Assembly (NCBI GenBank): GCA_029964075.1
Contig: CM057142.1
Location: 34,660,392 to 34,724,391, forward strand
Length of the DNA: 64,000 nt
Origin: Patiria pectinifera
Taxonomy: Eukaryota > Echinodermata > Asteroidea > Valvatida > Asterinidae
Reading direction: 5' to 3'
Shown here piece by piece: positions 14,507 through 55,379 of this stretch. The position numbers were made by a program, and so were the translations under genes. Below the pieces are notes generated by a model, which was not told the origin of the DNA, did no database searches, and worked only from the letters and a program-made list of their open reading frames with translations. Position 1 is the first letter of the stretch; every line of letters starts with the position of its first letter.

Positions 14507-16083
14507 TTAATCATTTCCAAGTTGGATGTTGAGACCATGTGGTTGAATACTTCGAAGGCGATTCATCCACACTTTCTCTCTGCTGAGGCGAACTGAGTCC
14601 TTGCGATGGCCAAGAGATTCAATGCCCTGCAAAATCATATCAGAAATGGAGTGGTTAGGCAGGTTGAAGTGATGACCAACAGGGGTGTCTAGTTTCTTAG
14701 TGTTGACCGTTGACCGGTGGGCTTAGAAACGCTTCTTGAGCGTATTCTTAGTCTCACCTACATACTGCACTCCACAGACCCTGCAAGAAATGAGATATAT
14801 GACATTAGAGGTGTTACAAGTGATGTTACCAATGGTTCTGTGGGTAGTGACAGAAGAGTGGCCAGAAAAGGAGTCAGACTCCTGGATATGAATCTGGCAG
14901 ACAACACATCTGGAACTGCACTTGAAAGTACCATGCTGGGTGGGAGGGGATGCATCTAAGGATGGGACTTCAGCTCGAACAATCAAGTCCCGTAGATTTC
15001 GAGACGCCTGTAAGCCAATGTGGGGCCGTTGGGGATGGCGCGGGCAAGGCGATCTGAAGTATGGAGGATATGATGATTGTCATTGGTGATTTTGCGAAGG
15101 GGAGGGAGATTGGGGTGAAACGTGGTAACCAAGGGAATAATGGGTTTGGCCATGGCATCAGGGGCCTTTCCCGTGAGAGCTAGATTTCTGGGGATAGCTT
15201 TAGCTCTGGCAATGGCACGATGAACTTGGCGAGAGCTGTGGCCCCTGGCCACCAAGTTGTTCCTCAGTATCTGTGTATGGCGGGAGAAATCGGAATCATT
15301 AGAACAAATTCTTCTGAGTCTGAGTGCCTGGCTAAACGCTATGCCAGTTTTGCAGTGCCTGGGGTGACAGCTGGAGGAGTGGAGGTACTGGTGGGTGTCT
15401 GTGGGTTTGGAATACAGGTCAGTGGTTAGTGAGTTGTCTTGCTTGAGGACGGTGACATCCAGAAAGTGGGTTTGGTGAGCCGAGAACTCCGATGTGAATT
15501 TGATGGTTCTGTGGAAGGAATTGATGTGGTTAGTGAAGGTCAAGAGACTGTCTTCATCACTGGTCCAGATGAAAAAACCATCATCAATATATCTCCACCA
15601 GATCCAAGGGCGACATGGGGCCGAGGCAAGAATGCGTTCTTCGAGGTCACCCATGAAGAGGCAAGCCATGGAGGGAGCCATGCGAGTGTCCATTGCAGTG
15701 CCGTGTACCTGTTGATAGTGTTCACCAAGGAAGGAAAAATTGTTCTTCGTTAGTATAAGTCTCATGAGGGTGCCAACATCACTGATGGGAGGAGTCGTGT
15801 GTCCTGCCTTGGCCAGAGCCAAGGAGCAAGCACGAACACCCTCCTCATGTGGGATGTTGGTGTACAGAGATGAGACGTCGAAAGTCCCAATGATGGCTGT
15901 GCTGGGAATCTGGTCCTTGATTCCTTCAAGCTTGCGTAGGAAGTCTGGGGTGTCGTGAATGTATGACGAAATCTGTGGGACAAGGGGTTTGAGAAAACTG
16001 TCAATGAACAGGGAAATGCGTTCCGTGGGTGAGCCATTACCGGAGATGATGGGTCTACCGGGGTTGCCAGCCTTGTGAATCTT
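14507..16083 (-). pseudogene. RT plus GIY-YIG ORF remnant of the Penelope-like element
   Basis: The longest open part is 15822-14983, and the frame stays open upstream to 16083. The tail, frame-shifted, is 14986-14723 and then, past one stop, to 14507. Domain order RT then GIY-YIG is diagnostic of Penelope-like elements. Two lesions (a frameshift and a nonsense codon) show that it is not functional. Confidence 0.85.
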
Positions 16084-22800: not shown

Positions 22801-25800
22801 TATATATAAGGTTTTTCATATTTTCTGTTTCAAATACATCTTATTATTAACACTAGTATGAGTAAATACGCACAAAATGTCACACATAATTTTTATATAA
22901 GACATTTTAGTTTATTTCCAGAGCGACAGGCCTAAAAGATAAACAGTACATGCAAACACCATGCAAACACCATGTGAAACTGTTCAATATTATAACTTAT
23001 TAAGAAAGTAATAATACTTTCTTCAGTTACCAAACAGGCGAACACTATTAGAGTAGACCCTATATATACTCATACCTTTGCGAGGACATCGAGGGTAAAT
23101 TTGTTGAACTCGTCCAACATGAGAACCTCGGTCTTTCCGTCTGCAACCTTAGCCAGCTTGTCAATAAGCACATTGGCGCTTTTGTTGAAAGATGAGATCA
23201 AATTCTTCAGGTATCTAGATACGAAGAAAAAAAAGAGCCGGCACTTGTAGCAAAGGTTTAAAGCTTCCATTTGTCGGACACTCTTGATATCATAAGTGTT
23301 ATAAACAAAACTTTACAATATCAATTGTCATATATTATTGTTGCGCCCGATGTTTATAAGGTTGGACAACAAAGCATATAGCAGTGACGCTGGTATTGTT
23401 TACGTTGCACTCTTTTTGATTGGCAGTATACCTTACTAAAATTCCATCTATTGTTTGAGATTGCACTTATAGTCGCTTTTATAAGTACGTAGTCGGTAAT
23501 TTTCCTTGTTAATGTTTTTCTTTTGCATAAAAAGAGATATTCAGTTGTATATTTTCTTCAGGAATGGATCATACTCCGACCTAATTCGTTATTTAGTGAA
23601 AGCCCCTTCTGAGTTTTGTTTTATCCAGGTGAATTGAAAATAATAAAACCGGAAATGTGTTCTCGTACGAACACAAGCTGTTTCGTCTATTCTCGAAATG
23701 GCTCTGTGACATGTTGTGACAAAATGATTCCTCATGATGTCACTTAATATCATGTATTCATATACATAAAACTATAACACCAAGTACAACTGAACCGGAC
23801 CTTTACTCCTCTAAATAAAGGCCTCAGCAAAATGCAAAAAAGAAAACGGAAAAGAAGGGGATTTTCATTCTATTTTAACCAACACAAGAGCAGTTTCGGA
23901 GTATGCACTCCGAAACAGCTAAAACTAACAGCTTGCTGAACAATTTTCGTCCAACATTTGAAGAGCTAAATCTTACTTTCTGTGGAAAGCAGGATCAAAG
24001 AGCGCCCTTCGCTTCATGTGTTTGGTGACGTTAGACTCGGTGAGAAGCCCGTGGTGTAGGTATCGCTGACCGTACACACTCCAGAAAAACTGCACCTCGG
24101 AGGGTGGTTTGAAATGAGTCGTAGAATGGAGGATTTTCTGATAGAAAATATATAACAAAAATATACGTAAATGGTAAATGGCGTAAATAATAACAGACTT
24201 AAATGAAAACAACACTTCAGTTCACTACACCTACACCTTCGCATATCGACATCCAAATATTGACAATGTTACCTATTAGTCTGCGTATGTTTTTAATACG
24301 TGTAGAAATAGTTTAGGAAAAAAAAAAGATAATTATAAGCCCATTTTACCCCACCAGGATGTCATTTATGTCAGTGGCAGTGCTTTCCGAGAGCTATTGA
24401 TAAAATAATCACATTTCTTTAACTAGTTTTCTTACAAAATTCGGTTCAATGTAACCGGGAAAAGTTCCATTCAAACAGGACTCCCCATAAACGGCAAATA
24501 TTCTACCAAACATTTTTTTTTTAAATTCTTGTTCCAAATTTCCTTTTATTATTTGATTGTGTTTGCTTGCTCCTAACCATGAGGTATTCATCTACAGCTG
24601 TAGATGACTTGTATACAGGTCAGTCTCTGCAGGTTGCGATAGAACGTTTAACATTTACCCCATTTCTGCACCGACCTTTGAATTATTGATAAATAAAAGG
24701 AGCAGAAGTGGCGAACTTTAGATTCTTATCAAAAAGTAAATCAGATGGTATCAAGTGTTGATCTATATTCACCAATGAGTAAGCACAACTAATTCCATAA
24801 ACAGATATCATTCATGGAGCGGATAGAGGAAACATTTGGAGGAATTGAGCCTTTGATGATATTTGGCACACAGACAGAGTATGTCATGAGAAAGATATTT
24901 GGCGAGAGGGCCATCGCAGATATGTCCTTTGAAAAAATTAGGTAGACTAACATGCAATTGTCAAAATTTTCAAAATGGCTGCCATTGCTTGTTATTCTTT
25001 ACCTATATTTTTTTGAAAGGAGAAATCTGCGATGGCCCTATAGCCAAATATCTTTCTTATGACGTTCTCTGACTGTGTGCCAAATTCCATGCTTGTATCA
25101 TCAAAGGTACAATCTTATCACCTATCTGCCGTACTAAGTAGGCCAATTCTTATTCTTTTTAAACAACCTTAGGTTATGCAGAAGCAGCTTGTTTAAAAGC
25201 AGACACTAGTATGGTCATTGATGAGTTTCTCTTTTGTCTGAAGATTTGGATTCTCAAAGAAATCCGTTAAATTGGTTATTTAGACCAAAAAAGGCGAAAT
25301 CCCTCACTATTTGAAATACCTTAGTACAGCTGGGATCCAGACAGATGATAGAGGGTTTGGTGAACATGAAGAGATTAAATATGCTGCCGTAGATTCTCGT
25401 CCTGTGAGAGGCATAAATAAGGCAAAATAAAATACATGGCTTTCGTTCTTGTTATTAATAATTTGGCACTACCAGTACCATTATTATATTTTCGTCATCT
25501 TTTTACAGGCTACCTCGGTTTTCATCACGATCAGTTCGTCCGTTAGTCGGTTTTTGTACGGAGTGCATAACATTCAGTAATTAAGTAGACCCATCCCAGT
25601 TGCCCACTTTTTGTGATTACTGCAGGGGGTGGCTTTCCACCACTATAATGGGGCGTTCCTTAAGGGTGCACCCAAGTATAAAAAAATCCCATACACCCGT
25701 GATAAAATGCCCATACTTCACGATTCTTTTTAAAATACCCAAAACTCTCCCAGGTATTAAGGCTGCAGAGAAAAATGATAATCAACATGTCATCTTTCGT

Positions 25801-29881: not shown

Positions 29882-30489
29882 CAACTTTCTACTCCACTTA
29901 AATGTATAAACACTAATTCACATCCCTTTTTGGTTAATTGTATTGAAAAGTGCACTTCTTAAAACACTCAGAATTGTCCATGCTTTTCCGGACAACTTAG
30001 GGCGCTGTTGCTGTGATGTCATTTCGGGAAGACAACTTTCAGTTTAGGGGTTTTCTGTTCAAATTGTAAACCCAACATTTGCTCATTGAAAACATTTGTA
30101 AGAAGGGGTTTGCTCATTGGCTTACTGCCATGTACTAACACAACAAAGAAACACCAAACGACCGCAAAATATCCAACATTCTGACAACTTTTTTGTGCTG
30201 AAATAGCTGTCTGCCCGGAATGACATCACAGTAATGTTTTGCTCATGAATATGGAAATTCGCATTATCGTAAATAAAGACACCAAACCACTCTAATAAAA
30301 TGAAAAACGGAAATTAAAAATCAGGTTAAATGGGACACAAAGGTGCATTTTCAAGGATTTCATTAAAGTTTGCAATTCATTTTGTATTTACATTTTATAT
30401 TATTTTTGTTAAAAAGAACATGTGAACGAAAAGGCTGGTAAGGACCCCTTATTCTAAGTTCAACTAACCCGCCACCCGATCCCCATATA
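29882..30489. repeat. 608-bp direct duplication, copy 1
   Basis: This block and 30495-31102 appear identical by eye over their whole length (period 613), separated by ACTTT. No coding frame is visible. Either a very recent duplication or an assembly artefact. Confidence 0.9.
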
Positions 30490-30494
30490 ACTTT

Positions 30495-31102
30495 CAACTT
30501 TCTACTCCACTTAAATGTATAAACACTAATTCACATCCCTTTTTGGTTAATTGTATTGAAAAGTGCACTTCTTAAAACACTCAGAATTGTCCATGCTTTT
30601 CCGGACAACTTAGGGCGCTGTTGCTGTGATGTCATTTCGGGAAGACAACTTTCAGTTTAGGGGTTTTCTGTTCAAATTGTAAACCCAACATTTGCTCATT
30701 GAAAACATTTGTAAGAAGGGGTTTGCTCATTGGCTTACTGCCATGTACTAACACAACAAAGAAACACCAAACGACCGCAAAATATCCAACATTCTGACAA
30801 CTTTTTTGTGCTGAAATAGCTGTCTGCCCGGAATGACATCACAGTAATGTTTTGCTCATGAATATGGAAATTCGCATTATCGTAAATAAAGACACCAAAC
30901 CACTCTAATAAAATGAAAAACGGAAATTAAAAATCAGGTTAAATGGGACACAAAGGTGCATTTTCAAGGATTTCATTAAAGTTTGCAATTCATTTTGTAT
31001 TTACATTTTATATTATTTTTGTTAAAAAGAACATGTGAACGAAAAGGCTGGTAAGGACCCCTTATTCTAAGTTCAACTAACCCGCCACCCGATCCCCATA
31101 TA
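30495..31102. repeat. 608-bp direct duplication, copy 2
   Basis: Second copy of 29882-30489, starting CAACTTTCTACTCC and ending GATCCCCATATA. The flanking sequence differs on both sides. Confidence 0.9.
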
Positions 31103-32153: not shown

Positions 32154-32398
32154 TACGCTCTAAAAAGTCCCGGGTCAGAATTGACCCGGAAAAAGGGTCA
32201 TGTGGGGCCTAACCCTTTTCCGGGTCAAAAATGACACTTTTCTTGGTCAAAATTACTGTGTAACTGTTTTCCTTGTTATTTTAAACCGGAAAAGTGTCAT
32301 TTTGGACCCGGAAAAGGGTTATTTTTGACCCGGAAAAGGGTCAGGCCCCACATGACCCTTTTTTGGGTCAAATCTGACCCGGGACCTTTTAGAGTGTA
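32154..32398. mobile_element. Hairpin MITE, CTCTAAAA..CCCGGGTCA termini
   Basis: Nearly the whole 245 bp is palindromic. The left arm runs TACGCTCTAAAA..GTCCCGGGTCAGA, then GACCCGGAAAA and GGGTCATGTGGGGCC; the right arm is its complement ending TTTTAGAGTGTA. GACCCGGAAAAGGGT-type units recur inside. A target duplication could not be settled. Confidence 0.8.
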
Positions 32399-33425: not shown

Positions 33426-35754
33426 AGCTTTGTTACAACCGATAATGTATCACAAATTGACCGATATTGTATCACTGACCGATAATGTACCAAAAATTGA
33501 CTGATAGTGTAGTAAAACTTGTATCCGATAATGTATCACTTGTCGACGGATAATGTAACTACAAAATAAGTGTATCCGATAATGTATCACCACGGAACGG
33601 ATACTGTATCAACCGATAATGTATCAAAATTCAACCGATAATGTATCAGTATGGGGAAAAGGTGTACACAAATGTTTGTTTTATGTCCGATTATCCGCCC
33701 CACGTTTTGACCAGGGAGGGGGGTCTGGGCTAGTTGATCACCACCACCCCCATTATTTTGTATTAATTTATAGAAAAAGGGCAGATTTTGAGGTATTTTT
33801 TCAAACTTTCCAACCGCCGAAATGTATTAAATAGTACTGAAAAAGGGAGAAAAAATACAAATAGCTTGAAATGCGCTGGGACGTCTGTATCATGAACAGC
33901 GCTCCCAGTGTCATGTGGTCTCCAGCAAGGCCCCCCCCCCCCGGTTTGTATTTCACGGCCAGGACTTTTTTTTTTTTTTAGCTATCCCCCATCCCCAAGT
34001 CCCCAGCACAGATTTACGCTACTGTTGCAGGGGCGGATCCAGGAATTTTCGCGGGGAGGGGGAAGGGGGAAAGGGGGGTTCATCAGCAAAACAATCTGAA
34101 ATGTACACAGGATTTTTTTTCCGGACACTTGGCCTCCGTAAAATCAAAAACTTGGGGAAGGGGGTATCATATTTCAATAGGGGACGCTGTTCAAATTTGA
34201 CAATAATTAACACTGTATTACAGAATGGTGTAAAAATAGCCCCTATCTAAGCTGCCTCCGTCCGTATTTTGAACAGGCGGACATTATACCAGTAATTTTT
34301 TGGGAGGTGTCACCGCAGAGGGGGGGGGGGGGGGTATTATTTTTTTTTAGGAATTTGTATGCAATTTGTTTTGGGACACAGCTGGGGGACTCCCCCCCCC
34401 CGGATCCGCGCCTGTGTTGGCCTCAAGGAAGCGGCAGGCTCGTGACGTTTGGACTCCAAACTGTGTGGGTTGAACAAACTGAAGTCAGTGGGTAGACATA
34501 TAACAAATGACGTCACATGCGAACGGTGCCCCCCCCCTAAAAAAACCGGGGCATTATTTTGTACGGTACAGTAATATTGTGTACATGATTGTAGGATTTT
34601 ATCAGCGCTACCCGTTGAAAATATGGCACGACCCCCTCCCCCCCCATCGACCCCCTCCCCCTCATCCCCCCCCCCCTCACCCCCACTAAATGAGCAGTAA
34701 TGCTGTGATTGTGCCCTTATCAAATCTGTAAGAAAAAAATCGACTGGGGTCGACAAGGGACCCATGAAGCTTGATCGCATGTAGACTATCTTTGACGATT
34801 GCCGCCTAAATCCGGTAAACTTGTTATATTGTATCTTTTGTGACAGCTCAAGTTACATGATCATTTCAGATGGTAGTTTTGCTATCCTCGCCACTCGTAT
34901 GTGTTCCCGGTTCATGCACAGCGCGTATTTTGAATGATGCAAAGTTATTGGGGGAGGGAACGGTCTGGGAGACCATCGCAAGTTAAATGGAATGTATGCG
35001 CGCGCCGACATTTCCTGACGCTCATGCGAAGACGCTGCTGCTAATAGCCACATTCTGGCACATTCTGGAAGTGGTGTGGAACTTTGCGCGCGAACCAGTA
35101 CAGTACAGTACGCACATGCTGTATCCCGTCCATTGATCGGAGATCAATGGTCCCGTACGTCCACGGGGCTCTCAAAAGAGGTAAAACGCACCCTCTTGTG
35201 TCACAGCACGGAGCCCATAATTATGGAGGCCAAGTGTCCGGAGAAAAGAACTTGTCCACATTTCGGCGCGGATGTGCGAGTGCGGTTACCCCCCCCCCCC
35301 TTGACATCAAAAGCTGGATGCGCCACTAGCCTAGGCCCACTTGGAAGTAGAGCGTCTCCAAACCAGAGCAACTCCCTACCTCCCAAATAAAAAAAATATT
35401 CTTAATGATAAACTTTCTCGAGTGGGGACTTATCATAGTAAAGGCACTTATTAGACTTTAATTAATTTGCAATATTTCCACCTTTTCCCCATACTGATAC
35501 ATTATCGGTTGAATTTTGATACATTATCGGTTGATACAGTATCCGTTCCGTGGTGATACATTATCGGATACACTTATTTTGTAGTTACATTATCTGTCGA
35601 CACGTGATACATTATCGGATACAAATTTTACTACACTATCAGTCAATTTTTGGTACATTATCGGTTAGTGATACAATATCGGTCAATTTGTGATACATTA
35701 TCGGTTGGTGATACGTTATCGGTTGGTTACTACATTATCAGTTGTAACAAGCTT
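33426..35754. mobile_element. 2.3-kb foldback element built on CCGATAATGTATCA units
   Basis: The left arm (33426-33662) holds about ten degenerate CCGATAATGTATCA units. The right arm (35481-35754) is its inverted copy, including TCAGTATGGGGAAAAGG and the outer AGCTTKTTACAAC. The interior holds other repeats and long C or G runs but no transposase frame. Gene D's otherwise related 3' flank (54.75-54.9 kb) has no such element. Non-autonomous; superfamily unknown. Confidence 0.8.
34022..34215 (+). repeat. Nested dispersed element with CAGGGGCGGATCC end
   Basis: Inside the foldback element. Inverted relative of 18642-18833 (CAGGGGCGGATCCAGGAATT, then TTCATCAGCAAAACA, CCGGACACTTGGCCTCCGTA). A further partial relative, with GGAGGCCAAGTGTCCGGAGA, is at about 35225. 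Confidence 0.55.
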
Positions 35755-39300: not shown

Positions 39301-42300
39301 ACAAACAGGTTATCCGTTAGGCTTGCAGGTCGACCTGCGATAATACATGTACTTGTTTGTAACACAACAACAAAATGCCGAGGTATTGAACAAGTAACAT
39401 TTAGTCCAGCGGATATGTGAAAAAATTGTGCACTTTTGCATAAAAGCGTGAAACTTGGCACAGATGTTTATATTCATGCGAGAAAATGTTTTAGATGTGG
39501 AGCCATCGCAAATTTACCCTTTTAGGGGCGTGGCATCCATTTAAAAAAAGGGGGGCGGGACTTGTCGTGCCCGCAGTGAAAATGGTTTTTCCCACTTGTT
39601 ACAAAAGCAGGAAACTTCACAAAGACATAATTATATAGATTATTAAAGTTTTCCAGATTCGGAGCCACCAAAAAAGTACCTTTTTGGGGGCGTGGCAGCC
39701 ATTAAAAGAAAAGGGGGGGGGGGGTTAATTATTATGCCCACTTTGGAAAACATTGTGCCCACATTTCATGAACGAATAAAACGTCCCACAGACGTTAATA
39801 TTCTTGAGAAAAAGGATTCCAGATGTGGAGCCATCTCGAACACACCCTTTTAGGGGCGTGGCAACCATATAAAAAAATAAAGGGGGGCGGGGTTTTCATT
39901 TTGCCCACCCTGGAAATATTGTTCCCACACTCATAGAGAAATGTAACTTTCCAGAAACATTCACATTCATGGAAAAAAAAAATTCCAGATGTGGAGCCAT
40001 CGCGAACACACCCTTTTAGGGGCGTGGCAGCCATATTGAAAAAAAAGGGGCGGGGTTCTCATTATGCCCAACATGGGAAAAATGTGCCCACATCTCATAA
40101 ACGAATGAAGCTATTCCCACAGACATTAATACTCACGAGAAAATGTCACATGTGGAGCCATCGTAAACACACCCTTTTAGGGGCGTGGCAGCCATAATAA
40201 AATGGGGGGGGGGTAGTCATGATGCCCCTATAAAAGAAAGTTGTGCCTACCTTTCATAAATGGATTAAATTCCACTAGGACAATATATTCATAAAAATCT
40301 TTTTTTTTTATAAATGTGAAGCCATCACAAACCTACCCTTTTAGAGGCACGGCGTCCATTTTTTAAAATGGGGGGGGGGGGTACTCAATATGCACAACAT
40401 GGAAAATTTTGACCGCTTTTTATATAATAAAATCCACCCCATATAGCTGTTTAATGTGTTGGAGTACATGCAGGGCCGCCTTTATAGTTGGAAGTTACTG
40501 TTGGCAAACCCTTTGTTTTCTTTCACTATGTATTCTTGCCTCATCTATATTAACCCAGTTACTGGTAACCTTTCAACTGCAACAATATCTGAATTGGGGT
40601 ATAAACTGGGGTGCCTCAGTTAGTCCTGGAAAGACTAGTGTTACTTCTCCAAATACATTGTTTCCCCTGCCTTTTTTTCTGACAGACCAAAAAGGATTGT
40701 GTGGTGGGGGTACACAGATTCATTGAATGTGAAGTCATAGTGGACGTGTCCACCACTTTGTGAGGCGAGTACATCGTATTGTTACCCAATCTGCTGCCAA
40801 TGCGGCGCAACGGGTAGGGGGTAGGGGGATTTTACACCCTAAAAAGGATTTCCATGGCCCTTAAATGTTAAATGTTAGAGTTTAGGGCTGCCATTGTGTG
40901 CTGTGTATTTGTAATTATGAAATCACTCTGGAATTTAGATGTGCATGATAATATAGGTGCAAGTACACACATTGAACCCTATAACACGGGTTAGCCTACC
41001 GGTACTTACCCATGCTCTTTGGTGTAAGTCATTGTATTACCAAATAATATAGGTTATGGGCCAATCAACATTATAAGAAAGCAACAACAAATTATAAAAA
41101 TTGCAATTGTGGGCACAGTGAGTAGGCCCCTCACACCTCTAATATGATGAGTTTGCTGTGGCTCTACATATGAATTTATTATCTTGCACCAAGTTTGTGT
41201 GAAGTTTAGTCATTTATGAAAGTTCGATGGTGGGCAAATGATTAGTAGCACCCCCCCACCCATTTTTTTAAAAATAGATGCCATGCATCTAAAAGGATAA
41301 GTTTGTGATGGCTTCAAATTACAAAAAAAGAAAAGATTTTCATGAATATATTGTCCGTGTGGAGTTTAATCCATTAATGGGAGGTAGGCATGACTTTCTT
41401 TTATAGGGGCATCATGACTAACCCCTTCCCCCCCCCCCCCATTTTACTATGGCTGCCATGCCCCTAAAACGGTGTGTTTACGATGGCTTCACGTGTGACT
41501 TGTTTTTTTCTCGTGAATATTAATGTCTGTGGGAATTAGCTTCATTCGTTTATGAGATGTGGGCAATTTTTTCCATGTTGGGCATAATGAGAACCCCGCC
41601 CCTTTTTTTCCAATGTGGCTGCCACGCCCCTAAAAGGGTGTGTTCGCGATGGCTCCACATCTGGAATTTTTTTTCTCACGAATGTCAATGTTTCTGGAAA
41701 GTTCCATTTCTCTATGAGTGTGGGAACAATATTTCCAGGGTGGGCATAATGAAAACCCCGCCCCCCTTTATTTTCTTATATGGTTGCCACGCCCCTAAAA
41801 GGGTGTGTTCGAGATGGCTCCACATCTGGAATCCTTTTTCTCAAGAATATTAACGTCTGTGGGACGTTTTATTCGTTCATGAAATATGGGCACAATGTTT
41901 TCCAAAGTGGGCATAATAATTACCCCCCCCCCTTTTCTTTTAATGGCTGCCACGCCCCCAAAAAGGTACTTTTTTGGTGGCTCCGAATCTGGAAAACTTT
42001 AATAATCTTTATAATTATGTCTTTGTGAAGTTTCCTGCTTTTGTAACAAGTGGGAAAAACCATTTTCACTGCGGGCACGACAAGTCCCGCCCCCCTTTTT
42101 TTAAATGGATGCCACGCCCCTAAAAGGGTAAATTTGCGATGGCTCCACATCTAAAACATTTTCTCGCATGAATATAAACATCTGTGCCAAGTTTCACGCT
42201 TTTATGCAAAAGTGCACAATTCATCGATATTTTGTCACATATCCGCTGGACTAATTCAGCAAACCTCGGTCATTTTCGGAAGCTGGAAGAATCGGTCACA

Positions 42301-49940: not shown

Positions 49941-52080
49941 CTAGAAATGTGTTTGTGGACAAACACAAGCTGTTTCGGATATTTGAAATACTCTGTGCAC
50001 GTAATGAACACTTGATGAAGTCACTTCGAATGTCATCTGCCAAGTGAAAAGTCAATCAGACATATAGTGCCAAAGTATGATTTGAAGAAAAACGTGTACA
50101 AACCCTATGGGGAAAAATGCATCTTTAATGTGAAGTAACCTTACACCTGATGATGTCACGATCACAATTTTTTTCTAGGACCATCTGTGGGTGGTAGACT
50201 AAGTGTGTACCAAGTCTAACGTCGATCGGATTTACGAAAGTGCCAAAGTAGAATGTTTTAAAACGTGTACAAACCCTATGGGGAAAAATGCATCTTTAAT
50301 GTGACGTAACCCAACCCCTGATGACGTTACGATCACAAATTTCTTCTAGGACCATCTGTGGCTGGGAGTCTAAGTGTGTACCAGGTCTGACGTCGATCGG
50401 ATTTACAGAAGTGCCAAAGTGGAGTGTTTTATAACGTGTACAAACCCTATGGGGAAAAATGCATCTTTAATGTGACGTTACCCAACACCAGATGACGTCA
50501 CGATCTCAAATTTCTTCTAGAACCATCTGTGGGTTGTGGTCTAAGTATGTATCAAGTCTGAGGTCGATCGGATTTACGAAGATGCCAAACTGGAGTGTTT
50601 TAAAACGTGTACAAAACATATGGGGAAAAATGCATCTTTAATGTGACGTAACCGAACACCTGATGACGTCACGATCACGAATTTCGTCTAGGACCATCTG
50701 TGGGTGGTGGTCTAAGTATGAATTAAATTTAAAGTCAATCGGATTTACGAAGATGCCGAACTGGAGTGTTTTAAAACGTGTACAAAACATATGGGGAAAA
50801 ATGCATCTTTAATGTGACGTAACCTGACACCTGATGACGTCACGATCACGAATTTCTTCTAGGACCATCTGTGGGTGGTGGTCTAAGTATGTACCAAGTC
50901 TGAAATCAATCGGATTTAAAAAAGTGGCAAAGTGGACTGGTGGAAGAAACGTGTGTTAAACCTATGGAGAAAAAGTCTGAAAAAGGAGAAAAAAAAAACT
51001 AGAAATGTGTTTGTGGACAAACACAAGCTGTTTCGGATATTTTAAATACTCTGTGCACGTGATGAACACTTGATGAAGTCACTTCGAATGTCATCTGCCA
51101 AGTGAAAAGTCAATCAGACATACAGGTGTATAGTGCCAAAGTATTATTTGAAGAAAAACTTGTACAAAACCTATGGGGAAAAATGCATCTTTAATGTGAA
51201 GTAACCTTACACCTGATGATGTCACGATCACGAATTTCTTCTAGGACCATCTGTTGGTGTTGGTCTAAGTATGTACCAAGTCTGAGGTCGATCGGATTTA
51301 CAAAGAGGCGAAAGTGTAGTGTTTTAAAACGTGTACAAAACATATGGGGAAAAATGCATCTTTAATGTGACGTAACCCGACACCTGATGACGTCACGGTC
51401 ACGAATTTCTTCTAGAACCATCTGTGGGTGATGGTCTAAGTGTGTACCAAGTGTAACGTCGATCAGATTTACGAAAGTGCCGAAATGGAGCGTTTTAAAA
51501 CGTGTACAAACCCTATGGGGCAAAATGCATCTTTAATGTGACGTAACCTGACTCTTGATGACGTCACGATCACGAATTTCGTCTAGGATCATCTGTGGGT
51601 GATGGTTTAAGTGTGTACCAAGTGTAACGTCGATCAGATTTACGAAAGTGCCAAAATGGAGCGTTTTAAAACGTGTACAAACCCTATGGGGCAAAATGCA
51701 TCTTTAATGTGACGTAACCTAACTCTTGATGACGTCACGATCACGAATTTCGTCTAGGACCATCTGTGGGTGGTGGTCTAAGTACAAATTCAGTTTAAAG
51801 TTGATTGGATTTACGAAGATGCCAAACTAGAGTGTTTTAAAACGTGTACAAAACATATGGGCAAAAATACATCTTTAATGTGACGTAACCTGACACCTGA
51901 TGACGTCACGATCACAAATTTCTTCTAGGACCATCTGTGGGTGGTGGTCTAAGTATGTACCAAGTCTGAAATCAATCGGATTTTAAAAAGTGGCAAAGTG
52001 GATTGGTGGAAGAAACGTGTGTTAAACCTATGGAGAAAAAGTCTGAAAAAGGAGAAGAAAAAAAAAAAGAAAAAAGAAAA
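49941..52080 (+). repeat. Higher-order satellite: two 1058-bp blocks, each five 171-bp units
   Basis: The landmark AAAATGCATCTTTAATGTGA recurs at about 50113, 50285, 50455, 50627, 50799 and again at 51180, 51350, 51523, 51695, 51866. Each block opens CTAGAAATGTGTTTGTGGAC with a GTGTTTGTGGACAAACAC palindrome (49941 and 50999) and closes AAACGTGTGTTAAACCTATG. Seven of the ten units carry TGATGACGTCAC. It lies between genes C and D. Confidence 0.9.
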
Positions 52081-52110
52081 ATAAAAATCTTAACGAAAAC
52101 AAGCTCTAAA

Positions 52111-53218
52111 AACTAGAGCTGTGTGTCTGTTTGCAAACAGAACACAGGGCTTTTCCGCTCATTACTTTTTAATTCCATGCTTTCTAGCGACTTGGGCCCA
52201 AGACTACGCGCCCACTGGTTTTGCACTGCCACGTGGCCCTTTCAGTGAATGCATGTACATACATGTACGTACACGCACCCTGTACACTGTTCATGAAGTT
52301 TTGATTTACATATATACACGTAACTGTATATTTGCCAAGTTTCAACCGAATTGGCATGCTAAAACTACAGATATCAATTATTTAAATTATAATCTTTAAT
52401 ACGACGTAACATGACTAATGATGACGTCATTATATCACTTGTTTAGGACCAACTTTACCTAAGGGCCTTGTAATACGCCTAGTTTAAAGTTAATATGATC
52501 CCATTTCATGTAAAATTTTGCAAGTAGAAGAAACAGTAAAAGAAAATTAAAAATTAATAACAAATCAGGTGATGATGTCATCATGACGTCACTTCAGATT
52601 TTGCATACTAGTAACAGTATCTACCTACCCACCAAGTTTCAAGACGATCAGACTTACTGTTATATGTGAAATAAAGAATCGCATTTTTGATGACGTCATC
52701 ATGACGTCATGCACTTTTCACTTTTTTGTCCAAGTATATATTACTTAACAAACCCATTGCAAAAAAAATTTTGAATTTACCATGTTCCGTTGATAAGATA
52801 TGGCTTGAAGGTTCAAAACTTCAAAAATTATTGTAAAATCACGCGATGACGTCATCGTGACGTCACCTCAATTTTGACCTATAACACATCCCGGTCTACC
52901 TACATGCCAAGTATGAACCAAATGGGACTTACCATTCTGGCGATATAGGGCCCTAAAGTATGCACCTGTAAGGTGACGTCACATGACCCATGATGACGTC
53001 ATCATTGCGTCTATCTTCGCGAACGACCTTTGCTATATGTTCTGTGACTATGTTAAGTTTTGATGTCATATGACTTTGTTTTATGCCAAAAGTGTTTGCT
53101 AGAAAAAACGTGCACAAAGTCTATGGCATTTTGGTTGGAAGTCCCAAGAGGAAAAAAAAAATAAAGAAAGAAAATTCGTAGAGAAACAAAGGCTTTTCCG
53201 CAACTTTGCGGAAAAGCC
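52111..53218 (+). repeat. Hairpin-tagged element with GGCTTTTCCGC tag
   Basis: Starts CTAGAGCTGTGTGTCTGTTT with palindrome CTGTTTGCAAACAG, then the tag GGCTTTTCCGC (52148-52158). Ends with the hairpin GGCTTTTCCGC-AACTTT-GCGGAAAAGCC (53191-53218). The interior has degenerate TGATGACGTCATCATGACGT units and CACCAAGTTTCAA-type blocks. No coding frame. Confidence 0.6.
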
Positions 53219-53250
53219 AAAAAGAAAAAAAAAATCTTAACGAAAACAAG

Positions 53251-53279
53251 AGCTGTTTCGGTGAGTCACCGAAACAGCT
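53251..53279 (+). repeat. Hairpin AGCTGTTTCGG / CCGAAACAGCT
   Basis: Perfect 11-bp arms around a 7-nt loop GTGAGTCA (shared base counted once), followed by AAA. The arm equals the tag found after the start palindromes at 49941 and 50999 and matches the hairpin at 23889-23920. Confidence 0.8.
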
Positions 53280-53283
53280 AAAT

Positions 53284-55379
53284 ATCAGAGTCTGCCATAA
53301 CTTATTTGATCCATCTGACAAACATGAATGCCTAAAGTGGATGGGTAAAAAAGCCAAAGAAAGTCTACGGGATTTCGGAAAAGAGGAGGAAGAAGAGAAA
53401 CAATGTGGGAATAAAAACAAAGCTTTCCCGCAGGCTTTTGCGGAAACCCCAACCTAAGAAAGCTAACATTAAGCACAAGTTACAAACTATATAGATGTAT
53501 ATCGATCTATTTGATGAACAGAACACAGGGCTTTTCCGCATTGAGTTTTAAAGAGTTGATTCTTTTGTGCCCATGTGCAGTCAGTTTGATGTTCAATTTC
53601 ATGTATGAACAAAGTTCCATGACTTATATAAACTTATTTAGTTATTCAGTAAGTTTTGCAGTTCTCGATCTATATACACGTAGGACAATGCTCTCTAAAT
53701 AAAATCTTATACTAGAACCATTTTCTACTCACCGAGTTTTATGACGATTCAACCCACCCTTACACGTGTTTTCAAATTGTGAATTTTATTTTGATGAAGT
53801 CATCACGACGATACACATTTTGTCATTCTTTAATTGTGCAAATATGTATCACTAACGTATTAGCAACCTTATTTTGAATTTAGGATGATCTGGTTTTGAG
53901 ATATGTCTTAGGTTTAAAAATAAAACAAATCATCAATTCACATCGTTAAGTCATTATGTCATTAACATTTTTATTATAACACACCCCTATCTAGGTACAT
54001 ATTACAATTTAATCCAATCCGACTATCAGTACACTCTATACAATCTAAAAAATGTGCACTTTTAAGATGACATCACATGACCCATGTTGAGATCATCATG
54101 ACGTCACTTGTCTAGAACCAACTTTGCTGTGGAGTCTTTGTCTTTGCATAGTTTAAAGTCAATCTAATATTATTTTATGCCTAATTATGAGAGCAGAGTA
54201 AATTATACCAATTGAAAATACATATAAGAATTAATAGATGACATCATCTTGACGTCACTTCCAATGTTACATACAAGTAGCAGTATCTACCTACACACCA
54301 AGTTTCACAAGGATGGGACTTACTCTTTTTGTGCAAATAAGTATGACGTAGCAGACCAATTACAAAAATAATATTGAATTTAGCATGTTCTATTTGTGAG
54401 AAATGACTGTAAAGTTCTAAAATTTAAAAATCATAAAAAAACCACACACGATGATGGTATCCTGACGTCACGAATGTAGACATTCCGGTCTACTTTACAT
54501 ACCAAGTTTCAACCCGATCGCACTCGCATTTCTCTGGATATAGGACTTGAAGATATCATGCACGTTTCAGATGAGGTCATATGTCCTACGATGACGTCAT
54601 CATGACGTCCTTTCAATATTAACCTATCAAACATCCTGGTCTTCCAACATACCATGATTCAACCCCACCGGACTTAAAGTTCTCTAGATATAGGACTTTA
54701 ATATATGTACCTTTAAGTTTTGAAAGAAAGTGGATAAATTCACTGTTTGTGACAAAAAGGTGCTATCTTGTAGATACTATACTGTAACTGTACCCACCCA
54801 ACCAATCACAAACGGTACTATGGAGGGATCGTCTAGTGCTAGTCATGTCTTGACAACATACGGACTGTTTAGTTAACAAAGACCGATTCCGGTTTTAAAT
54901 ATCACCACGACTAGTTTGGACAGTTATTCAACCATTAAAAACAACCAACTTATATAATAATGATATTTATAGAACCACGATAAAAAAAATCCAAAAGGAA
55001 TATAACCTTTGCTTCTTTATCGTTACCCTTCTTGAACTAAAAACAAAATGCGATTATACAGACAAATCCTTTACCGATTATCAACGTGAAATAAGTATAA
55101 AATCACAGCTTAAAAACTACCAAACCTTAAGAGTACTTAATGGAACTTAAGGGCAATATGAAATATATTTCTAAAGTACATTCTAGCGGTGCTTGCCGCA
55201 CCGTGATGTTTGGTCTAACAATATTGATTAAACTACAGACTACTGATTCAAATTCAAGCTCCGGTCCCAGTACAAATTCTTCCTAAAACGTAATATCTCA
55301 CTATGAAACGTTACGTATTCATATGTTGAGTCATTGTTATAACTGTGAGATATGCGACTGTTTTTGAGCTCCCAAAGTT
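53284..55379. other. Degenerate TGACGTCA-rich repeats and gene D 3' flank
   Basis: To about 54650 this continues the degenerate repeat (GATGACGTCATCATGACGTC, ACCAAGTTTCAACCCGATCG). Another GGCTTTTCCGC tag is at 53528-53538. From about 54750 it aligns with the 3' flank of gene C (33.28 kb, then 35.85 kb onward). No gene seen. Confidence 0.55.

Follow-up and report, generated by a model that had tools for sequence, protein, structure and literature searches.

Organization of the repeat block

The stretch of the Patiria pectinifera genome analyzed here (64,000 nucleotides, hereafter the window) contains a satellite-bearing block with unusual ends: read along the plus strand, a palindrome followed by a short tag opens the block, and a hairpin that uses the same tag as one arm closes it. 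The question is whether this layout represents an undescribed kind of mobile element or a known kind read from the wrong side. A reading of the sequence alone favored the former. The two families involved, termed A and B, are new, and their architecture is already known. They are very probably non-autonomous Helitron2/Helentron elements (HINEs) lying in minus-strand orientation, most of them carrying a tandem satellite.

All motifs named in the sequence-only reading are present to within one base (its first start, given as 49948, lies at 49949). On the plus strand, GTGTTTGTGGACAAACAC starts at 49949 and again at 51007, with the A tag at 49968 and 51026; two A starts are served by one A hairpin, and a satellite array follows each start. 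The B start CTGTTTGCAAACAG occupies 52127-52140, its tag 52148-52158 and the B hairpin itself 53191-53218.

Read on the minus strand, the whole of element A spans 49941-53281, with 5'-TT at 53281 and CTAG-3' at 49941. Its 5' end (53251-53281) consists of TT, the 5' inverted repeat AGCTGTTTCGG, a loop and CCGAAACAGCT, the hairpin proper being 53251-53279. Its 3' end (49941-49978) consists of CCGAAACAGCT as the 3' inverted repeat (49968-49978), the stem-loop TGTGTTTGTCCACAAACACA (49948-49967) and CTAG (49941-49944). A second A 3' end on the same strand (50999-51036; inverted repeat 51026-51036, stem-loop 51006-51025, CTAG 50999-51002) belongs to the same array and has no 5' hairpin of its own. 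Two central satellites, at 50089-50936 and 51155-52002, each contain 5.0 copies of a 171-bp unit. Element B (52113-53220, minus strand) is nested inside A: its 5' TT and hairpin GGCTTTTCCGC..GCGGAAAAGCC lie at 53191-53220, its 3' repeat at 52148-52158, its stem-loop at 52126-52141 and its CTAG at 52113-52116. The block proposed earlier is real; its limits are better placed at the CTAG (49941) and at the AA that follows the hairpin on the plus strand (53281), and it contains two A starts and a nested B.

Two further minus-strand pieces lie elsewhere in the window. The short A copy of 0.27 kb (23649-23922) has ends like those of the long A and lacks the 171-bp satellite; its plus-strand start is at 23657 and its hairpin, whose arm AGCAGTTTCGG has one mismatch, at 23889-23920. 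On the minus strand, its 5' end is 23889-23922 and its 3' end 23649-23685, with CCGG where the terminal CTAG is expected. A B-type 3' inverted repeat with adjoining bases (53522-53539) has no CTAG nearby and is probably a remnant. No transposase gene is found in the A and B copies of the window.

The window holds other repeats and coding traces. An inverted repeat at 39424-42221 has arms (39424-39732 and 41913-42221) that are 98% complementary and built of tandem units of about 165 bp; another at 33436-35707 has 229-bp arms, also 98% complementary, with short units such as CCGATAATGTATC. A perfect 608-bp tandem duplication lies at 29882-31102. A 366-aa open frame (14983-16083, minus strand) gives a sub-threshold reverse transcriptase match, and the domain profile search returned one sub-threshold P450 match.

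Abundance and linkage of the two ends

Both families are abundant. In the genome searched (613.5 Mb, 1020 contigs, called C1, C2 and so on), the exact A hairpin with a loop of 3-12 bases occurs at 1140 places, and the A start, with stem arms fixed and the eight middle bases free, at 746 (408 + 338). The exact B hairpin occurs at 596 places and the 18-base B start at 57 (25 + 32). Reversed-pattern controls gave 0 matches for each of the four. These numbers far exceed chance, and the earlier claim that two tag families obey one layout is right.

The tag ties the two ends of an element together, a link with good support for A and thin support for B. Among the 17 exact A starts on C1 (every place listed), 14 are followed by an A hairpin within 6 kb, against a chance expectation of about 0.6%; the other three have no exact A hairpin within 6 kb. 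An A hairpin lies within 6 kb upstream of two of the 17, both within arrays, and a B hairpin downstream of one, at a locus where A and B hairpins adjoin. For B the sample from C1 and C2 is small: three of four starts have a B hairpin downstream (two of these three also have one upstream), and one of the two starts testable for it has an A hairpin downstream. The lack of linkage by which the sequence-only reading would have been refuted was not observed for A or, in this small sample, for B. A third hairpin tag, AGCTGTTCCCAATT, is present in seven copies at one locus; no start of the predicted form was found for it, the genome-wide search giving one exact 16-base match where 0.3 were expected.

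When the stretches examined were searched de novo for this layout, the pairs recovered were the window's B pair, two of type A on C1 with a common start, and an unrelated one at window 32191-32334. The stem test used passes over most A pairs, and the result is not a count.

End structure and known systems

On the minus strand the parts come in this order: TT and the tag hairpin, then the satellite, then the reverse-complement tag, a stem-loop and CTAG. The terminal bases are regular in the stretches examined. Of the starts, 47 have 40 or more bases of context on the left; CTAG is present in 42 of them, and in 41 of these 42 an A precedes it on the plus strand, which is a T after CTAG on the minus strand, in keeping with a T-rich target. 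At the other end, 30 hairpins have the usual upstream context, and 29 of them are followed by AA on the plus strand. Outside these ends, flanks vary from copy to copy.

The 3' stem-loop is preserved by compensating changes in several copies. All 47 starts have a stem of at least 5 bp beside the tag, the set having been selected for such a stem. Paired changes keep the A stem intact in TGTGTTTG/CAAACACA, in TGCGTTTG/CAAACGCA (three sites) and in TGTGTTCG/CGAACACA (one site), and the B stem in TCTGTTTG/CAAACAGA (two sites). Some stems are broken or shorter, e.g. ATGTGTTTGTGGACAAACCC at two sites, a B stem on C1 with a one-base loss, and the mismatch at window 23656.

These ends can be set beside published systems, as described in the available portions of three papers. 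The 5' TT differs from the canonical 5' TC of Helitron1; the canonical 3' CTRR after a hairpin is found here, as CTAG, in the 42 starts. In Helitron2, the 5' inverted repeat forms part of a hairpin and is set back 0-2 bp from the 5' end; the 3' repeat immediately precedes a hairpin, at a distance of about 20-30 bp from the 3' end (PMC3627910, as far as available). The A and B ends share both features: the 5' repeat is 2 bp from the 5' end, and from the 3' repeat to the CTAG end there are 27 bp in A and 35 bp in B of the window. They differ from Helitron2 in that the window copies lack a transposase gene and carry a kilobase satellite, and hairpins elsewhere stand in series.

HINE/DINE-1 elements provide a second likeness. 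According to the accessible part of PMC4067079, subTIRs of HINEs and Helentrons are palindromic or paired with an inverted 5' copy, a stem-loop stands near the 3' end, the target is T-rich and not duplicated, and some copies hold tandem repeats; one proto-Helentron has 5' TT and 3' CTAG termini. A and B resemble them in subTIRs, inverted 5' copy, 3' stem-loop, T-rich target, absence of duplication and internal tandem repeats, a likeness drawn from the described layout. In HINE/DINE-1, however, the 3' repeat lies 38-60 bp from the end, compared with 27-35 bp here.

The bivalve Cg_HINE and Pearl elements come third. Their order, in the portion of PMC7492417 consulted, is repeat, complementary copy, microsatellite, satellite, repeat and palindrome. 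The left flank (repeat, complementary copy and microsatellite-like stretch) is like that of A and B, the satellite unit is about 160-170 bp in some, and a 60-bp right flank holds the repeat and a palindrome. Their target is TT and is not duplicated, as here; the likeness is one of descriptions, not of sequences.

Because the minus-strand layout fits the published end rule, the “tag equals hairpin arm” rule is the asymmetric inverted repeat seen backwards. The comparison with HINE and pearl elements made from sequence alone was apt, and the idea of a distinctive, undescribed layout has to be given up: it equals the asymmetric inverted repeat of Helitron2 (PMC3627910) and the subTIR rule (PMC4067079, PMC7492417) in the parts of those sources available. 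The orientation is also reversed, the supposed end hairpin being the 5' end and the palindrome plus tag the 3' end on the minus strand. Among the papers listed by the literature searches, none is a study of the A and B families themselves; such a study could still exist.

Association with Helentron genes

The genome encodes candidate enzymes in number. A profile search gave at least 148 matches to the Helitron Rep domain PF14214 and at least 144 to PIF1, each count being a lower bound taken from the 150 best candidates scored. In the one copy that was read downstream (C10:8107141), an Exo_endo_phos domain closes the stretch beyond PIF1, whose frame, by calculation, is that of Rep. The genome therefore holds at least one Helentron of the Rep-helicase-endonuclease type.

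Rep matches are unevenly distributed: contig C7 (44.85 Mb, 7.3% of the assembly) holds 86 of the 148 PF14214 matches among the best candidates scored. It is a Helitron-laden chromosome, possibly a sex chromosome or another with low recombination. Past the Helentron endonuclease frame at locus L076 (1846-2722; C10:8112445-8113321) lies a tandem array of 9.0 copies of a 98-bp unit.

Direct sequence links between these genes and the A and B elements were sought in several ways. No exact A or B tag occurs in the 4 kb downstream of Helentron L076, and 31 Rep stretches compared with seven element stretches have no detectable sequence in common. A partner carrying exact A or B tags within the Rep stretches was rejected: there were none, and the only one-mismatch A tags, in L046 and L047, do not show the layout. 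Four A ends near the Rep loci L077-L080, considered as a Helentron 5' region, proved to be satellite-type ends like the others.

The strand of neighboring helicase genes provides a link of another kind. Two sets were compared. For the first, 128 of the 144 PIF1 matches were used (16 second or short fragments omitted) and merged to 127 loci; A ends were 100 of 148, those listed, plus all 90 A joins, merged to 185. The second set drew on 100 of 165 matches, again those listed, 54 of which were absent from the listed A ends of the first set that were entered for this comparison; eight of those first 100 were left out of it, and none of the eight equals a place in the second set. In the first set, all 25 pairs of an A end and a helicase within 30 kb lie on the same strand (17 helicase loci); within 20 kb there are 18 same-strand and 0 opposite pairs, where 500 random shifts gave means of 2.5 and 2.5. 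In the second, all eight pairs within 30 kb are on the same strand (shifted means 1.4 and 1.5); they represent seven helicase loci, five of them already in the first set. The rule weakens past 30 kb: at 50 kb the first set has 36 same-strand and 3 opposite pairs and the second set 16 and 2, and at 100 kb the first has 50 and 8. In the pairs listed (to 25 kb for the first set, 30 kb for the second), the distance between the A end and the start of the PIF1 match is about 11-25 kb when the A end precedes it and 7-23 kb when the A end follows. The same-strand clustering ties the families to Helentrons, and Helentrons of the same genome are suggested as the enzymatic partner of both families.

The helicases near A ends are also skewed by clade. 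Clades were set by the starting point of the PIF1 profile match, a criterion in agreement with the sequence clusters for those loci that could be matched by eye. The first set supplies 15 helicase loci within 25 kb of A ends, and the second adds two. Of these 17, 12 belong to clade 1 and three to clade 2, one of the three being Helitron1-like, and two are unassigned; against all PIF1 matches used of both clades, Fisher's p is 0.011 in a small, post hoc comparison. Near B ends, four helicase loci lie within 40 kb, every one of them of clade 2 and on the same strand, again a small, post hoc sample.

Strand also bears on the most serious alternative, that A and B form a new class with its own single-stranded DNA logic, in which the 5' end would really be the palindrome plus tag, and the tag hairpin would act as a terminator by reading the tag. 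Within 30 kb, the helicase genes of all 33 pairs run in just this orientation, and the inner members of arrays would then lack the 3' hairpin, as the available text of PMC7492417 has it for tandem Helitrons. Since A ends share the helicase strand in the orientation of the sequence-only reading, Rep would run opposite to the orientation defined by the ends under the Helitron2/Helentron assignment. That arrangement has precedents, however: it is known for Helentron-Da-40, Helitron-1_DR and Helitron-2_CRe, as a minority arrangement (PMC3627910 and PMC4067079, in the parts available), and PMC4067079 (same limit) is the source that reports it for Helentron-Da-40. The reversed reading, moreover, fits the published end rule, as excerpted, in the points compared, including CTAG beside the 3' stem-loop. 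A new class is accordingly improbable, and non-autonomous Helitron2/Helentron elements remain the preferred identification.

Head-to-tail joins and insertion site

Many elements are joined directly. An A hairpin arm is followed within 2-12 bases by CTAGAAATGTG at 90 places, with AA alone as spacer in 32 and AAAAA in 20; a B hairpin arm is followed by CTAGAG at 40 places, with AA in 23 and AAAAA in seven. Together these are 130 hairpin-to-CTAG joins, 55 of them with AA alone between. The CTAGAG pattern leaves the tag of the next element unfixed. Among the 40 B joins, at least two run into an A start and two into an exact B start, the A starts compared having been picked by eye from partial lists.

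Other arrangements are also found. The 42 CTAG-bearing starts comprise 20 that follow the tail of a unit without a hairpin, six that follow a hairpin and 16 that follow another flank. At C1:21185992-21189186, four A starts stand ahead of one hairpin at 21190283. The 5' hairpins also occur in series, at times with mixed tags: at C2:16300157-16300941, thirteen hairpins (tags A, B, a B variant and a third tag) follow each other about 50-110 bp apart.

An empty site was sought with the joined flanks of the copy at C1:29641775-29643122. The query gave 12 matches: its own two flanks, nine elsewhere that cross the junction and one elsewhere that does not. The nine cover query positions 56-151 (one 60-151) at 77-84% identity, and three were read. 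Compared with these three paralogues, this one insertion has no target duplication, which bears out the Helitron-type expectation for insertion sites. Host bases balance at 17 against 17, by hand count on the alignment, if the element runs from TT to CTAG. Because the empty-site paralogues differ by about a fifth, the exact target bases are not fixed. The window duplication of 35.8-47.0 kb and 54.9-62.8 kb was considered as a natural empty site and set aside, the stretch adjoining the element having no alignment within the window.

Cut-and-paste MITEs with 11-bp terminal repeats that are palindromic by chance would account for the inverted repeat that does stand at both ends; the absence of a target duplication at the one empty site, the asymmetry of the ends and the exact head-to-tail joins argue against them, and this explanation is very improbable. 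Plain satellite arrays, multiplied by unequal exchange and with palindromes present by accident, would suit the predominance of satellite within the window's A block and the 20 starts that follow a unit tail without a hairpin, but flanks that vary between copies, the existence of an empty site and a 0.27-kb copy without satellite leave this explanation almost no credence.

Proposed mechanism and significance

For the Helitron2/Helentron assignment, a mechanism can be outlined. The Helentron Rep-helicase-endonuclease would nick one of the strands and copy it in a rolling circle; the shared tag, presumably recognized by Rep, would bring both ends into register, and the 3' stem-loop would act as terminator. 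Missed or repeated termination would yield head-to-tail joins and arrays with several 3' ends. Rolling-circle copying beyond the element end would explain the exact TT/CTAG joins; joins without a hairpin would require truncation or slippage in the A-rich tract.

The tag might further serve as an address: each Helentron clade would read its own tag and mobilize its own satellite passengers, and coding and non-coding elements would spread together as same-strand concatemers through rolling-circle copying across the CTAG-TT join. This extension is possible, if rather doubtful; the reading of an address is made less likely by the two B hairpins that join A starts.

An apparently new architecture is thus reassigned to a known one. 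With two tags, hundreds of ends, 130 joins and a same-strand link to helicase genes, the A and B families constitute a natural data set on which Helentron end recognition can be tested. The same data set is suited to the question of how satellites ride on Helentron elements and multiply within them.
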